Positions 503 to 9,160 of a stretch of 49,063 nt of DNA are shown piece by piece. This DNA is from a virus. The notes beneath the pieces were generated by a model. The model was given only the letters and a program-made list of their open reading frames with translations. It was not told where the DNA came from and did not search any database. The position numbers and the translations under genes are program-made. The first letter of the stretch is position 1. Every line of letters starts with the position of its first letter. The stretch covers positions 1 through 49,063 of the IMG/VR virus record IMGVR_UViG_3300030110_004014; one strand, written 5' to 3'.

Positions 503-694
503 TCATGTTTTTTTCTTCTCAAGTTCTTTGAGGTATTCTATAATTTCTTCCCGAATGACTTCTTCGATTGCCTCTTCGTCAAGATCTTCTTTTACCTTCT
601 TGCTTTTTCTTTTTGATTTCTTGGACCACTTCTTGGCCATTTCTGGCTCATTAGCCCACATCCATCTTTCTTGTTTTTTTGATTTAAAAGGCAT
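503..694 (-). CDS. Small basic 'MPFKSKxQ' phage protein with acidic C-terminal helix
   Basis: The protein has 63 residues and starts MPFKSKKQERWMWANEPEMA, a small conserved family common in phages (pattern MPFKSxxQxRxxxAxxPExAxxW) with no known function. I chose the ATG at 694 because an AGGAG site (705-709) lies 10 bases upstream. ATGs at 703 and 712 are too close to this site or overlap it, and would also lengthen the conserved N-terminus. The middle is very basic (KKSKRKSKK). The C-terminus is an acidic helix (EEAIEEVIREEIIEYLKE) resembling the N-terminal leaders of the proteins at 5527-5865 and 6174-6587, but at the opposite end. The start lies 2 bases before the last base of the previous gene's stop. 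Confidence 0.7.
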   Translation of the reverse strand: MPFKSKKQERWMWANEPEMAKKWSKKSKRKSKKVKEDLDEEAIEEVIREEIIEYLKELEKKKT

Positions 695-953: not shown

Positions 954-1159
954 CGATCAGCCTTCCGCTGAAGTTTATTCACTTGTCGGGAAACTTGTTC
1001 CATGTTGTCATTAAGTTGAGCTACAGTTACGGCCAAATCTTCCATCTCGCCTTCAAGATGATCAAGGCGATGCTGGGTCGTGTAATAAAAACCGCCCAGG
1101 GCGGCTACAACTGCAAGGAGTGGTAACAATCCTTTTATGTTTTCTATCATCGTATTCAT
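950..1159 (-). CDS. Small membrane-anchored coiled-coil protein coupled to the FtsZ-like gene
   Basis: I place the start at the ATG at 1159, inside an ATGA overlap with the stop of the FtsZ-like gene. A longer reading from 1243 would overlap that gene by 88 bases and add a cysteine-rich stretch with no family logic. The 69-residue product has one hydrophobic segment (about residues 10-27, GLLPLLAVVAALGGFYYT) followed by a coiled coil (HRLDHLEGEMEDLAVTVAQL and on to NKLQRKADR). The sequence shows a one-pass protein with a helical domain on one side of the membrane. Two readings are possible: a membrane tether or regulator for the adjacent GTPase filament, or a lysis-related protein similar in composition to XhlA-type proteins. 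No direct evidence separates these. Confidence 0.7.
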   Translation of the reverse strand: MNTMIENIKGLLPLLAVVAALGGFYYTTQHRLDHLEGEMEDLAVTVAQLNDNMEQVSRQVNKLQRKADR

Positions 1160-2310
1160 TGTTTTAATCCATTCATGCTTAGTATCGCAATCAATCCAGG
1201 CACATTCTTTCGCACATAAACGCCAGAGAAAAGTGTCTCGCATCGACCGCCGACATAAGCGATTGCCGACTCAATGTTCTTGCTAACTTTTGGGTCTGCC
1301 ACCATCTCTTCCGAGACTACCAAAACTAACGAACCTGCTGCAGCCTTGCCCTTGGGTGGAGGGCACGCAGAACGATTCATGCAGTTATGAAGAATCACCG
1401 ATCCAAGCTTTCCAGTATTTGGATCTTTTATCATTGTCGAACCTAAAAAGGCACGGCCGTCATTGCTCAAGCAAGTTTCCAAATCTTTACTATCGAAAGA
1501 TTGGATCGGTGAGTCTTCGGTGGAGAGTTTAAGCACCTGAGCAAGCGACTTAGCAAACTGAGTATTTGCGACAGGGTACATGCCAAGCATGCCGATTCTG
1601 CCGCGGAGTAAACGTGTGGAACGCTCGTTATCTAAAATAACATGCGGATATTGTGTGACATCATTTGCCAACGTCAACGCATTACGAGCGATTGTGGGGT
1701 TAAGGTTTTCTTGTGCTGTCGGCCAAGAAACTATATAAAGAACTTTACCAGCAGCTTGAACAGAACGTAAGTAACGCTCAAAGACAGGCTGAAGAGCAGT
1801 AACAGAAGAGCCGGTGCCACCGCCGCCGCCAGCAAGAACAATAAGCCAATCAACTTTTCCGAGTTTAATTCGGAGTGCATCTTCAACGATGGCGCCATTT
1901 TGTGATAGGACCTCCTTGCCATATTCAACGTTCTTGCCGATACCATCTGAATCAGGAATCAGCACAACGTGGTCTTCTTCGACGTTCTTTGGAATATCTT
2001 TTCCTGTGGTGTTAACCAGCAGGGTCTTGTTGAACCCAAGCTCAAGAAAAGCATTGGCCATTTTGTTGCCTCCACCGCCGACGCCAACAAAGCCAATATT
2101 CAATGAAGAGGGTGCTGTGTTTTCTGGTAGGAGGTCTTCATCAGAATATTCCATCTGGAGTCCAAAGTCTTCTACCATGCCGAAATCTTCAGCATCTACC
2201 TGTTCATGATAGTGGTCTTTCTCCTGATTAAAGGAGGGTGGTGGCTCTGCGGGAGGCAGAAAGTCAAATTCGTTTTTGTCTTCTTTATTATCGTTTTCGT
2301 TATCGCTCAT
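1156..2310 (-). CDS. FtsZ/tubulin-like GTPase
   Basis: The protein has 384 residues. The first ~68 are an acidic, low-complexity extension (DNENDNKEDKNEFDF, PPAEPPP). The tubulin/FtsZ GTPase fold then follows: glycine-rich T1 loop at 73-83 (GFVGVGGGGNK), signature T4 loop at 161-169 (GGGGGTGSS), a T6-like segment at 224-232 (VILDNERST), and a T7-like synergy loop at 271-285 with D273-x2-D276 (FDSKDLETCL). In polymers of this family the T7 aspartates complete GTP hydrolysis in the neighbouring subunit, so the protein should form GTP-dependent filaments. It has no C-terminal FtsA/ZipA-binding tail of the usual FtsZ kind. It overlaps the SbcCD fusion by ATGA at 2310-2307 and the membrane coiled-coil gene by ATGA at 1159-1156. 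Other phages use tubulin homologues (PhuZ, TubZ) to position genomes. Interference with host division is an alternative. Confidence 0.88.
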   Translation of the reverse strand: MSDNENDNKEDKNEFDFLPPAEPPPSFNQEKDHYHEQVDAEDFGMVEDFGLQMEYSDEDLLPENTAPSSLNIGFVGVGGGGNKMANAFLELGFNKTLLVNTTGKDIPKNVEEDHVVLIPDSDGIGKNVEYGKEVLSQNGAIVEDALRIKLGKVDWLIVLAGGGGGTGSSVTALQPVFERYLRSVQAAGKVLYIVSWPTAQENLNPTIARNALTLANDVTQYPHVILDNERSTRLLRGRIGMLGMYPVANTQFAKSLAQVLKLSTEDSPIQSFDSKDLETCLSNDGRAFLGSTMIKDPNTGKLGSVILHNCMNRSACPPPKGKAAAGSLVLVVSEEMVADPKVSKNIESAIAYVGGRCETLFSGVYVRKNVPGLIAILSMNGLKQ

Positions 2311-5526: not shown

Positions 5527-5865
5527 TTAGCCCTTTCCTGGATTTGCAGACTTCTCCGTGGTTTCGATACTTGGGTATTTTTCTTTTACTGCTCGTTGTA
5601 CGGCCTTCACCAAACTATCGAGAGACCCTTTATACCAAGAGGGAGCCTTATCATATTGGCTCGCGCGGGAAAGTGCGTTTTGTGCTTGCGCTTTGCTATT
5701 AATGGGGAAATGGTCTTTATCGTCTGTCACATTAGAACTTTCAGCACTAAAGGTCACATCGCCGCGGTTGCGCACTTTTGCGTTTGGATCTTTTTTTTCT
5801 TCACTAAGGATTATTTCAAGCTCTTCTTTAATAATGTCTTTAAGTTGTTCTTTTGTGATTTTCAT
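5527..5865 (-). CDS. Small protein with KITK-type N-terminal leader and FPI..A..AL-type domain
   Basis: The protein has 112 residues. Residues 1-23 are the leader MKITKEQLKDIIKEELEIIL followed by SEE, an amphipathic helix containing I12-x-E14 and L20-x-E22. This leader is shared with the protein at 6174-6587 and is similar in layout to those at 7862-8338 and 8335-8985. The rest is a small domain, HFPINSKAQAQNALSRASQY then WYKGSLDSLVKAVQRAV, of a type found in other phage proteins (possibly DUF6582-like). I cannot name its function. It ends with PGKG. The ATG at 5865 has an AGGAAG site that lies in the gap and stop region of the upstream gene. If the leader is a T4-style capsid-targeting sequence, the mature protein would begin after residue 14 or 22. 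Confidence 0.75.
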   Translation of the reverse strand: MKITKEQLKDIIKEELEIILSEEKKDPNAKVRNRGDVTFSAESSNVTDDKDHFPINSKAQAQNALSRASQYDKAPSWYKGSLDSLVKAVQRAVKEKYPSIETTEKSANPGKG

Positions 5866-5866
5866 T

Positions 5867-6133
5867 TTAGAGGCTTCCTATTGTAGTTAGCTTGGCATTC
5901 ACTCCGGGGTGTTGCTTCTTAAAATCTGCCAGAGATGCTCTAATGGATTCCTCATCACAAGGACCATCGTACCATGCCTCAAACTTCTCTAAAGCTTGTA
6001 CAGAGTTGAGAACTCTGTCTCCTAATCCTGCGGCAGTGCAGATATCCTTAAAGATCTCGACAGCAGTGGCGGTTTCTTCCGCAGGTTCTTCTGCTGTTTT
6101 AAAAAGTGATGTGATTTTGTCCCAAAGACTCAT
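5867..6133 (-). CDS. Small hypothetical acidic protein
   Basis: The protein has 88 residues and starts MSLWDKITSLFKTAEEPAEE. It has a short amphipathic N-terminal helix, an acidic low-complexity stretch (residues 14-24), and then a globular part with EIFKDICTAAGLGDRVLN and FKKQHPG. I do not recognise a family. An AAAGGAA ribosome-binding site lies before the ATG at 6133 in a 40-base gap. It sits between two genes with KITK leaders, so a packaged or accessory role is possible. Its own N-terminus lacks the I/L-x-E pattern at residue 12-14. Confidence 0.65.
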   Translation of the reverse strand: MSLWDKITSLFKTAEEPAEETATAVEIFKDICTAAGLGDRVLNSVQALEKFEAWYDGPCDEESIRASLADFKKQHPGVNAKLTTIGSL

Positions 6134-6173
6134 TTAAGTATTTTCCTTTAAGTTGATTATCGTGCGGGTTTCT

Positions 6174-6587
6174 TTACCTTCGATATGCAGTGGCACCGTA
6201 GATCTTTCTGTTAATGTATGCAAGCAAATCTTCTTGGATGTGCTCTATGCTCATTGTCGAGTTAACTATTGTCATAAGTTCTTCTTCTACATTTTGTCTT
6301 CTTAGATCCAGTTGAGGTAAATTAAGATTGTCAATTATGTAACTCACCACGTCTTCAGCAGGCGCGTCCGAGATCGAAAGCGCGTCTTTGACAACAGTAC
6401 CGTAGTACGGGGTCTCTTCTTGAAGTGAGGGCGTCTGTCCGACTGGCCGGGCCATATCAGTCGGAGAAGCTGGGTGGCATTTGCCGTCTGCATATTTTTT
6501 ATGCCCCGGTGGACATTCTTCTTCTTGAAGAACCTTGGTAATCTCTTCTTTAATAATCTCTTTAAGTTGTGATTTTGTGATTTTCAT
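6174..6587 (-). CDS. Small protein with KITK-type N-terminal leader
   Basis: The protein has 137 residues. Residues 1-24 are the leader MKITKSQLKEIIKEEITKVL then QEEE, nearly the same as in the protein at 5527-5865. It contains I12-x-E14 and L20-x-E22. Immediately after comes CPPGHKKYADGKCHPA, with two cysteines 12 residues apart, then a proline-rich linker and a helical C-terminal domain (residues 60-130, rich in acidic and aliphatic residues) ending in KIYGATAYRR. No enzymatic motif is visible. The ATG at 6587 has a TAGGAGTC site 6 bases upstream, and the previous gene ends 10 bases away. Confidence 0.72.
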   Translation of the reverse strand: MKITKSQLKEIIKEEITKVLQEEECPPGHKKYADGKCHPASPTDMARPVGQTPSLQEETPYYGTVVKDALSISDAPAEDVVSYIIDNLNLPQLDLRRQNVEEELMTIVNSTMSIEHIQEDLLAYINRKIYGATAYRR

Positions 6588-6597
6588 GCGGCGACTC

Positions 6598-7536
6598 CTA
6601 TACGGCTGAAAGTAAATTCAACAATAAATAGTTATCTCTATCAATAAAAGCCGCATTCTTCTTTCGTTGCGAGAAGACTTCTCTTGGCATCTCGGCCACG
6701 TCTTCATATCCTGCCACATCTATTTTATAAAGTTCCACATCATAACGCAAAAGCGTTTCAATAATCCGGCGCTCTTTGTCAGCAGCGTCTGGATCGAGCG
6801 CCATGTAAACGGGGGTGTCGTTAAAGACAATCTTTCGCAATAATCTTGAGTCGGATCGAAGTGTTGATCCCAATATTGGCACAGCGTTTCCCGCTCTAAT
6901 TGCATCAAAGACTCCCTCCACTAAAACTAAGTCCTCATTCCAATCGATAAATAGTTCGTTAAAAACAATGTCCTTCGACGCTGGTGGGTTCTTGTACTTA
7001 TAAGAGTCTTTTGTATATGATCTCGCAATAAAATAGTTAGAATCCCCATCGTCATCAAACGAGGGAATAACTACTCGACCACGATACAGGCCATCAAAAC
7101 AATAGCCCATCTTCCATTTTACAATATCAGCATAACTTACACCACGTTCATTGAGATATCTCATGGCATAAGTGGCAGTACGCGGTGGTGTTGCGGAGGT
7201 CAGGCTTGCGAACTCTTCCGGCAACTCAAGTTTCTGGGGAGGTTCTTTATCATCTCTATCATCAAAGAGGTCAGCAAAGTCACGCAAATCCATGCGACCT
7301 GCAATCTGGTCCCACCTCTTAAGATGTGTAAAGGAACCAAAACGACGCACAAGACGGCGAATACTGCGACCGCGATAGTCACAAATCCAACATTTAAAAA
7401 CGTTTTTGTCCAAGTTAACAGACAGTTTACGCTTGTGGTGATTACACGCTGGACATCCATATAATAGTTCGTGGCCGCTATCTCTACATCTTCCGAGAAC
7501 TTCGCCTAAGACTTTCTTGGCTGCTGTCTTATTCAT
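6598..7536 (-). CDS. DnaG-type DNA primase with zinc ribbon and TOPRIM domain
   Basis: The protein has 312 residues. A zinc ribbon lies at 28-52 (C28-x2-C31, C49-x2-C52), where the usual CHC2 motif has a histidine. A TOPRIM core contains VLVEGVFDA (E207) and ALDPDAADKE (D248, D250), the acidic residues that bind catalytic metal. The protein is shorter than bacterial DnaG and lacks the C-terminal helicase-binding domain, consistent with a phage primase that makes RNA primers for lagging-strand synthesis. It is surrounded by small genes with leader peptides, an unusual location since no helicase or polymerase gene is nearby in this window. GAGGTAAC precedes the ATG at 7536. Confidence 0.88.
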   Translation of the reverse strand: MNKTAAKKVLGEVLGRCRDSGHELLYGCPACNHHKRKLSVNLDKNVFKCWICDYRGRSIRRLVRRFGSFTHLKRWDQIAGRMDLRDFADLFDDRDDKEPPQKLELPEEFASLTSATPPRTATYAMRYLNERGVSYADIVKWKMGYCFDGLYRGRVVIPSFDDDGDSNYFIARSYTKDSYKYKNPPASKDIVFNELFIDWNEDLVLVEGVFDAIRAGNAVPILGSTLRSDSRLLRKIVFNDTPVYMALDPDAADKERRIIETLLRYDVELYKIDVAGYEDVAEMPREVFSQRKKNAAFIDRDNYLLLNLLSAV

Positions 7537-7548
7537 GTTACCTCGCGA

Positions 7549-7824
7549 CTAGCTGGTTTGGGAATAAGCTTTTAGAATCTCAGCAAGCCTTTCAGGCTCT
7601 ACAGGATACAGTTGTCCTGCTTTAAACTCTGTCAATCCATAGTTTCCTTTTGGATTAATAGAATAATAGTAGTCTTGCGCATTCCGGTATTTCTCATCCT
7701 TCAGCCAATCTACTGTAAAATACGCCCAGCCGTTGTCAGCTATGCGTTTTGCGGTTACTCGGCCTAAACGAAGCCAGCCGCTATGGCCGTTCCAGACCAA
7801 ATCTCCAATCTCAATAGCACCCAA
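7549..7824 (-). CDS. Small hypothetical protein (TTG start)
   Basis: The product has 91 residues and starts MGAIEIGDLVWNGHSGWLRL. The frame is open further up, to a TTG at 7872 that overlaps the previous gene by 11 bases. However, the TTG at 7824 has an exceptionally strong ribosome-binding site, AAGGAGG, 5 bases upstream, and the conserved-looking 'IGDLVWNG' segment starts right after it. The N-terminal half looks like a small SH3-like or beta-barrel fold (IGDLVWN, GRVTAKRIADNGWAYFTVDW) and the C-terminal half is helical. Function unknown. It sits between the primase and two genes with leader peptides. Confidence 0.65.
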   Translation of the reverse strand: MGAIEIGDLVWNGHSGWLRLGRVTAKRIADNGWAYFTVDWLKDEKYRNAQDYYYSINPKGNYGLTEFKAGQLYPVEPERLAEILKAYSQTS

Positions 7825-7829
7825 TGTGC

Positions 7830-7836
7830 CCTCCTT
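7830..7836 (-). promoter_or_regulatory. Strong ribosome-binding site before a TTG start
   Basis: The minus strand reads AAGGAGG, complementary to the 16S 3' end, followed by GCACA and TTG at 7824. This decides the start of the gene 7549-7824. Confidence 0.7.
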
Positions 7837-7861
7837 TTTTAATAATATAACAGATGCGGTT

Positions 7862-8338
7862 TTAGCTGTCAACTCTTTTTACTTCAAGAGGTCTAAAATA
7901 TGCAACGACTGGGATCCCGCCATCTCCGAGAGTGTAGGAAATACCGTCATAAGAGTCGGCGATATCTTCGAGCATCTTGGTCCACTCCATGTCGTTTCTC
8001 AAACCGTAAGTAGGATGTCGATGTTGACCCGTATAATCGTCTGGGTCTGTTCGCAAATCATAAATCCTTTCGGACGGAATGTCGGCAATAAACAAATCAC
8101 CAGTCACGATAGGTTCTTTTCTTTCTGGATCTGTATAATAAAAGGAGCGAGGGTAACGACTACGAGTCCATTCGTTTCGAGAATACGAACCGCGAGATGT
8201 TACAAAGTGTGCTGGATCTACGATAAAACGATTCTTATCTTTAGCCGCATATGCGCGTGTATAATGATAAAGCCTTGTCTTTCCAGGCTCAACATCTTCA
8301 TTTATAAACGTTTGCCAGTTTTCAAATAGATTTCTCAT
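7862..8338 (-). CDS. Leader-bearing protein, possible ADP-ribosyltransferase-like fold
   Basis: The protein has 158 residues. The leader MRNLFENWQTFINED has F11-I12-N13-E14, the same layout as its neighbour at 8335-8985. The body opens with TRLYHYTRAYA, reminiscent of the first strand and histidine of ADP-ribosyltransferase folds. Conserved-looking segments YSRNEWTRSRYPRSFYYTD and LFIADIPSERIYDLRTD follow. It ends with YDGISYTLGDGGIPVVAYF, the kind of closing strand pair often seen in phage ADP-ribosyltransferase-like domains. I see no unambiguous catalytic glutamate, so the assignment is an inference from pattern only. T4 packages such an enzyme (Alt) in its head with a cleaved targeting peptide. 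The ATG overlaps the upstream stop (8335-8338, ATGA). Confidence 0.6.
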   Translation of the reverse strand: MRNLFENWQTFINEDVEPGKTRLYHYTRAYAAKDKNRFIVDPAHFVTSRGSYSRNEWTRSRYPRSFYYTDPERKEPIVTGDLFIADIPSERIYDLRTDPDDYTGQHRHPTYGLRNDMEWTKMLEDIADSYDGISYTLGDGGIPVVAYFRPLEVKRVDS

Positions 8339-8985
8339 TTGCGTGTTAATCTCTCTGCGATTTTAGCTACTACCCATTTGGCGTTACGAGAAAGGCTATC
8401 AAATGTTTCCATCTCGTTTACTTCCTTAAATGTAAAAGGTCTGCCGCGAACTCGGCTCATAAACTCAGCCTCTTGACCCGCAATGAAATCGCCGACAGCC
8501 TCGGTGTTACCAAGGCCAGGAAAGGAGGTATCATTAGTTCCATATAAATAGGCGCCTTCGCCACCTTGAGGTATAATCAATATAGAGTCTTGACAATACA
8601 ACTCTCCCAAATCTTTCATGTCGGCTGCAAAATCAGGACTATCGGGAAGATTTACCACAAAAAAGCTGGACTCACTCACTTCTACGCGTTTTAAAGGATC
8701 TGCGTCGGTAAAGTTTTCAATATAAGAGCCATCAACGCGAGTAACACCATATCCTTTCCTAAGAAGCAGTGCTTTAAGTTCGCGGTTTCTTTCTTGATTC
8801 ATTTTGCGTGAGGATGTCTCCTCTTGGCCCGCAGCAGGCAAATCGGTAATGCACCCCTCCGAATCATCAGGAGCAGCCCTGTGGGCCGTCAGGATGGCTG
8901 TATCGTGCTCTTGGGTGTGTTGGTGAATGCGTGATAAGGAAGACTCATTAAGGAAGCCTTTCCAACTGTCGTGAAAATTAGTCAT
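8335..8985 (-). CDS. Leader-bearing DUF3293-like protein
   Basis: The protein has 216 residues and is the first gene after the promoter at 9011-9039. The leader MTNFHDSWKGFLNES has F11-L12-N13-E14. The body follows the pattern of DUF3293-type proteins: a TAILTAHRAAP strand, NQERNRELKALLLRKGYGVT, an ESSFFVVN strand and LGELYCQDSILIIP followed by a glycine-rich turn. It ends with RVRGRPFTF and a basic helix. The biochemical role of this family is unknown to me. The ATG at 8985 has only a weak ribosome-binding site (AAGTAAGA is the best match), and the expected leader RNA is very short. The N-terminal similarity to the next gene supports the start. Confidence 0.68.
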   Translation of the reverse strand: MTNFHDSWKGFLNESSLSRIHQHTQEHDTAILTAHRAAPDDSEGCITDLPAAGQEETSSRKMNQERNRELKALLLRKGYGVTRVDGSYIENFTDADPLKRVEVSESSFFVVNLPDSPDFAADMKDLGELYCQDSILIIPQGGEGAYLYGTNDTSFPGLGNTEAVGDFIAGQEAEFMSRVRGRPFTFKEVNEMETFDSLSRNAKWVVAKIAERLTRK

Positions 8986-9040: not shown

Positions 9041-9067
9041 TAAAAACCCCGCCTCGAAGGGCGGGGT
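9041..9067 (-). terminator. Rho-independent terminator
   Basis: On the minus strand an 8-bp stem ACCCCGCC/GGCGGGGT (9060-9067 with 9046-9053) encloses a CTTCGA loop and is followed by TTTTTA. It closes the transcript that runs through the tail genes, resolvase and membrane protein. The complementary orientation has no T-tract. Confidence 0.88.
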
Positions 9068-9160
9068 CGTGATGTCGGTGAAACTTGAGTCATCATTGCC
9101 AGAGTGTGGGCGTATTTTTATCTTACAGTGAGAGGGTCAAGGTTCGCTGTACTTTTAAAT

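Follow-up and report, generated by a model that had tools for sequence, protein, structure and literature searches.

Short N-terminal leaders shared by unrelated proteins of uncultured marine T4-like phages as probable capsid-targeting peptides

Introduction

The closest described precedent for a set of unrelated proteins united by a short N-terminal peptide is found in phage T4, where the internal proteins IPIII, IPII and IPI carry a targeting sequence (MKTYQEFIAE) and Alt, a head-packaged ADP-ribosyltransferase (ART), carries a propeptide; the prohead protease gp21 removes them from what are otherwise small or enzymatic proteins with no relationship to each other. This protease cuts after L/I-x-E, and residues 4 and 7 of the T4 sequence serve targeting while residues 8 and 10 serve processing (PMC9026906). 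Here we analyse a locus of similar design in the IMG/VR virus record IMGVR_UViG_3300030110_004014, positions 1 to 49,063 of which (hereafter the window) represent a 49-kb fragment of an uncultured marine T4-like phage. Four of its genes, at 5527-5865, 6174-6587, 7862-8338 and 8335-8985, code for proteins that begin with one of two leaders, here termed leader A and leader B, both of which end in [LI]-x-E. We consider it likely that both leaders serve a widespread marine lineage of T4-like phages as cleavable capsid-targeting peptides and that the bodies behind them are packaged into the head and injected.

Since T-even internal proteins are routinely identified by their N-terminal signal (PMC12373910), the concept is already known; what is new is leader A, the tryptophan-type leader B, the scale on which uncultured marine phages use them and the connection of such leaders with known virion enzymes. 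No description of the leader-A sequence turned up in the full text of 5.4 million open papers, a search that misses subscription journals and sequences printed only in figures. Two further groups of described systems are relevant. The ejection proteins of the giant phages phiKZ and SPN3US are likewise a set of head proteins with propeptides, in phages with a distant gp21 homologue; however, those propeptides are mostly more than 100 residues long and end in A/S/G-x-E (PMC5694885). T4-like cyanophages, in turn, carry enzymes in their virions: a SAM hydrolase, a kinase, a Cas9-like protein and a cytidylyltransferase in S-CREM2, and a nicotinamide mononucleotide adenylyltransferase (NMNAT) in S-SCSM1. 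In the passages of their publications consulted, such proteins are classed as virion-associated without being linked by a shared leader.

Results

Two leaders on four proteins of the window

The original prediction for this locus was that four proteins with different bodies share matching N-termini, and it holds as far as the sequence is concerned: all four open reading frames (ORFs) are present on the minus strand, every leader has I or L at residue 12 and E at residue 14, the two longer leaders have a second L-x-E at residues 20-22, and the bodies proved unrelated in a comparison of the window proteins. Leader A begins the product of 5527-5865 (112 aa; MKITKEQLKDIIKEELEIILSEE), where codons 1-14 occupy 5824-5865 (MKITKEQLKDIIKE) with a candidate cut after E14 and a second one after E22 (L-S-E, at 5800-5802), and whose body yields only weak matches and no recognisable domain. 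It also begins the product of 6174-6587 (137 aa; MKITKSQLKEIIKEEITKVLQEE), where codons 1-14 occupy 6546-6587 (MKITKSQLKEIIKE) and an L-Q-E with its end at 6522 is the second candidate site. Leader B begins the products of 7862-8338 (158 aa; MRNLFENWQTFINE; codons 1-14 at 8297-8338) and 8335-8985 (216 aa; MTNFHDSWKGFLNE; codons 1-14 at 8944-8985), the latter continuing into a conserved SSLSR junction.

Leader B and the virion enzymes of cyanophages

A search with the leader-B consensus pattern MKLLxENWRx[FY][LI]xE matched at least 120 stretches in IMG/VR, and 153 proteins remained among the matches listed once similar bodies had been removed. Leader B has W at -6, F/Y at -3, L/I at -2 in 92% and E at 0, most of which the scan itself required; the search patterns by their design impose conservation on the positions they cover, but they account neither for the sharp end of the leaders nor for the second leader-A site or the unconserved bodies. 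In leader B this end falls at E14-E15, after which relative entropy drops to background (n=153). With an aromatic residue at -6 and -3, L/I at -2 and E at the presumed cut, leader B stands in the T4 register, as do both leader-B genes of the window, and corresponds directly to the T4 sequence; it differs in its length of 14 residues and its near-invariant tryptophan (ExWxx[FY]LxE). The types recognisable among 87 leader-B bodies were P-loop/zeta-type kinases, protein kinases, NUDIX, NT5C, GNAT, HAD and M23 peptidase. IMG/VR scans for close relatives of the two leader-B proteins of the window returned one contig only.

The body of the 8335-8985 product exceeds the curated cut-off of the S-AdoMet lyase family PF23780 (37.2 bits against 28; E 3.3e-9), which identifies it as a predicted S-adenosylmethionine (SAM) lyase, one set apart by its head-type leader; a PDB sequence search gave no convincing match. 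Homologues occur in Alishewanella, Microcystis, Campylobacter and Synechococcus phages and in a marine single-cell virus, with leaders of varying length, and every homologue whose body starts with SSLSR reaches it through x-E. Among them is the S-CREM2 protein, which was detected with 19 unique peptides in CsCl-purified virions (PMC10665884) and which has a similar leader with the same xE/SSLSR junction (a slash marks the junction). In the Prevotella phage Lak-A1 (L127) and other Lak megaphage records the SAM-lyase homologue has a longer N-terminal extension ending in LNE/KSLNR.

The 7862-8338 product probably adopts an ART-like fold, to judge from its structural model (pLDDT 69), for which the top PDB structure matches are nearly all ARTs (best E 0.036) and include 6kyf, described as an anti-CRISPR protein (TM 0.48/0.54); domain and PDB sequence searches gave no convincing match. 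Homologues down to 21% identity retain M1, E14 and a YH motif. The likeness to T4 would in this case extend to the cargo, Alt being an ART as well.

The cyanophage virion enzymes connect leaders of this kind with mature particles, as their leaders have the form M-x-x-F-x-x-F-L-x-E. In S-CREM2 the virion proteins gp6, gp12, gp13, gp14, gp136 and gp154 all start with a [FL]xxF[LMF]xE leader. Among its proteins of at least 75 aa, with the canonical structural set excluded, six of the seven that have a T4-register leader were found in virions as against 22 of the 122 that lack it (p 4e-4), a figure to be read with the caution that the pattern was widened (M and F at -2) after the data had been seen. 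In S-SCSM1, where such a leader was predicted before looking, the virion NMNAT starts with MKSFLQFLKE/AA; this agrees with a head-leader function and is by itself not significant. The Cas9-like virion protein of S-CREM2 (OR473000.1 gp12; L441 7704-10313) has the T4-type leader RFASFMAE/A and is possibly an injected nuclease.

Lineage, protease and head module

T4-like lineage markers are present on all 20 long leader-A contigs that were examined, gene calls being those of a simple ORF caller. A gp21-type protease of family S77 is present in 12 of them, ten of which also encode Gp23, and all ten contigs with Gp23 have the protease; in the remaining ones the marker is a T4-type portal or a gp6 homologue, and an HK97-type Phage_capsid was found in none of the 20. 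The window is tied to this group by its gp6-like baseplate protein, which is 59-64% identical to proteins of the S77-bearing contigs G002, G007, G022 and G024, the first two of which carry a T4-type portal and Gp23 besides. The prohead protease that had been expected in the genome is found in relatives that have head genes, but not on the window fragment. In 10 of 10 Gp23-type major capsid proteins we observed two sites, LTE/G around residue 10 and L[LV][RK]E/[SAG] or the like around residue 58, as expected of a protease with T4-like specificity. The [LI]-x-E end of the leaders, the S77 protease and Gp23 are features that the lineage has in common with T4.

The genomic setting points in the same direction. 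The closest relative, G021, shares its gene order with the window: the SAM lyase is followed by the ART-like gene, the primase, leader-A genes, SbcCD, a leader-A gene, a tubulin-like gene and another leader-A gene, so that tagged genes stand just upstream of a putative terminase and portal, both assigned by position and by size match to other contigs. The leader-A bodies at this locus of G021 differ from those of the window, with the leader remaining the same. Leader-B genes lie between or beside portal, protease and scaffold genes in G009, G020, G022 and G035. A conserved protein of about 130 aa adjoins the S77 protease in the head modules that were read (for example G002 70992-71381; L164 10992-11381), and its start (MKKSELKKVIKPLVKECIHEVLIEE) bears a likeness to leader A by eye.

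Leader A as a family

Leader A (MKITKxQLKxIIKEE) was matched by its DNA pattern in at least 120 IMG/VR stretches, many contigs having several copies, and the bodies behind it are mostly different; similar bodies removed, 224 proteins remained among the matches listed. In eleven gene-called T4-like contigs, 53 of the 58 matches to a hidden Markov model (HMM) of the leader were N-terminal, a region making up 12% of the residues. Taken with the recurrence on mostly different bodies, this bias shows that the sharing is not a matter of chance. The conservation extends beyond the first site and then stops: relative entropy falls to background right after residue 22-23 (n=224), [LI]xE occurs within residues 17-31 in 135 of 224 proteins (60%) as compared to 17% of body windows of equal length, and L20 is coupled to E22 (odds ratio 6.9, p 2.6e-11). 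The residue after the last leader site is A/G/S/T in 41% of cases versus 23% after the same motif in bodies. Unlike the T4 sequence, leader A is longer, has two overlapping sites and, where the T4 rule has aromatic or hydrophobic residues ahead of the final E, is hydrophobic with aliphatic residues (L8, I11, I12, E14; L16, V19, L20, E22). It also heads far more cargo, with some 20 tagged genes in jumbo phages; the jumbo contig G005 alone has more than 20 matches. The bodies are short and a domain search recognised no known domains in them.

Outside phages leader A is very rare: in 257 Gb of GTDB contigs, bacterial and archaeal, it was met in five stretches, which belong to three metagenome-assembled genomes, and two of these genomes also hold S77. 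When isolate phages were searched by tblastn with leader A as a short query, there was no match, which probably reflects the limit of short, low-complexity queries.

Certain variants of the tag were seen in passing. Two proteins, at 82643-83911 of G009 (L180) and 106766-107824 of G022 (L295), have leader A both at the start and in the middle, as in a two-part precursor. A basic segment, NIYKWCPxGxKCxPEKKKTKWWKGR, makes up a tiny leader-A protein (46-aa ORFs in L011, L027, L036 and L112) and recurs as the C-terminus of larger leader-A proteins (L052, L093). Leader-A-like C-termini are found in a small protein of the window (503-694, minus strand; EEAIEEVIREEIIEYLKELE), in the SAM lyase of Microcystis phage Mel-JY01 (L122) and in G022 122627-123025 (e.g. 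MKITREQLKEKIRIIVKRVLNEA). T4 Alt is processed at its C-terminus as well, and it is therefore conceivable that C-terminal versions of the leader-A tag may exist.

Weighing the capsid-targeting reading against its rivals

The proposal that the leaders send a set of effectors into the capsid has good support in the case of leader B and is likely in that of leader A, given the S77 protease, portal and Gp23 of the relatives, the matching sites in their capsid proteins, the synteny and the virion proteome of S-CREM2. In addition to the widening of the S-CREM2 pattern, several observations weigh against it. A looser S-CREM2 pattern fixed beforehand gave p 0.04 and no significance among longer proteins, and two annotated S-SCSM1 genes have the pattern, one of which, SSCSM1_30, does not appear in the published list of virion proteins. 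The strict [LI]xE is absent from residues 17-31 in 40% of leader-A proteins, a figure that falls to 21% if the first position may also be V/M/F. Behind the first leader-A site stands E15, where the capsid sites have a small residue, so that the cut may fall at either E14 or E22. The likeness of leader A to the MKKSELKKVIKPLVKECIHEVLIEE N-terminus reached 20.6% probability in hhalign, and we claim no homology. The leader-A DNA pattern matched none of seven isolate genomes, no isolate or virion proteome with leader A was found, and the 49-kb window is itself without head genes.

The strongest competing explanation concerns leader A and not B, and takes it for a docking or localisation helix that serves some other phage structure, such as tubulin-like filaments, and is no head signal. 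Leader A is indeed not aromatic, unlike the T4 sequence, no leader-A protein has been seen in any virion, and a tubulin-like gene sits within the leader-A cluster. In the window this gene (1156-2310, minus strand) codes for a Tubulin/FtsZ-like protein just under the cut-off of Pfam Tubulin, for which tblastn found no isolate-phage match; it is unusually conserved, at 90-93% identity in most related contigs where neighbouring genes mostly reach only 50-80%. We nevertheless regard a docking helix as unlikely: the [LI]xE motif also closes leader A, where its residues are coupled, the leader-A genes lie clustered at the head module, every contig with leader A that was tested is T4-like, and in G005, for all its leader-A matches, no called gene matched the tubulin-like protein of the window.

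Slightly less probable still is that the leaders do target the prohead, with bodies that are parts of the core or scaffold, degraded or expelled at maturation, and not effectors. Some leader-B genes occupy the position of T4 core genes, leader-A bodies lack known domains, and gp21 cuts T4 core proteins into pieces; yet those leader-B bodies that can be recognised are accessory enzymes, similarly tagged cyanophage proteins persist in mature virions, and the cargo differs between sister contigs, unlike essential core genes.

Two further explanations can be set aside with near certainty. The first 45 nt of the two A leaders of the window are near-identical, with only codons 6 and 10 differing and divergence setting in from codon 16, as remnants of whole-gene duplication might be, but the identity ends at the leader, and this candidate was rejected because the bodies do not match, be it in the window, in sister contigs or across hundreds of proteins. 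A DNA or RNA element, for instance one for translation initiation, would fit the codon identity of leaders from the same genome (0.59-0.77 versus about 0.45 expected, in contigs other than the window), but there the codons differ for about a quarter to two fifths of the identical residues, and what is conserved is a set of hydrophobic positions and an amino-acid motif whose end two different peptides share.

The gene run and its boundaries

The four genes had been described as one operon. They do lie in a single minus-strand run, but this also holds an untagged small gene (5867-6133, minus strand), an untagged DNA primase gene (6598-7536, minus strand) and another untagged gene (7549-7872), so the common feature of the four is the leader and not the operon. 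Consensus matches suggest that the run 5527-8985 is a single transcription unit: a strong terminator-like hairpin (9045-9068, minus strand) and a promoter-like site (9039-9011) stand upstream of 8335-8985, and another hairpin (5521-5503) stands at the other end. The body of the 6174-6587 product opens with a small CPxG...C motif that is also present in the S-CREM2 virion protein gp15, a weak link through a rare motif.

Discussion

On the capsid-targeting reading, the leader would dock each protein onto the prohead core while the head assembles. The S77 protease, which is encoded in the relatives and whose [LI]-x-E motif stands in the leaders, would then cut after this motif. The mature body would stay in the head, as published virion proteomes show for relatives with leader-B-like peptides, and on the model of T4 it would be injected along with the DNA. 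For leader A we extend this scheme from its sequence pattern and genomic setting. It would follow the same plan in aliphatic residues, repeated once (L8xxI11-I12xE14 and L16xxV19-L20xE22). The cargo of the window would comprise the SAM lyase, the probable ADP-ribosyltransferase and two small proteins, and its enzymes would act at once on a new host; one such action would be to deprive restriction-modification systems of their methyl donor.

We further lean, with less assurance than for capsid targeting as such, towards regarding leader A as a second, hitherto undescribed class of capsid-targeting signal, composed of two overlapping h-x-x-h-[LI]-x-E units and serving as an exchangeable adaptor in uncultured T4-like phages of the sea, those of jumbo size included. 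Recombination with the leader of about 45 nt would then be enough to turn new proteins into injected cargo.

Injected phage proteins have so far been known for a handful of isolates. If the proposal is true, two tags on hundreds of unrelated ocean-phage proteins would make the discovery of such proteins a matter of search, and what a great many environmental phages inject could be read off their sequences. The tags point to candidate enzymes of counter-defence or host take-over, among them the SAM lyase, the ART-like protein, kinases, NUDIX and HAD proteins, and the leaders would offer new peptides with which to load proteins into phage heads.

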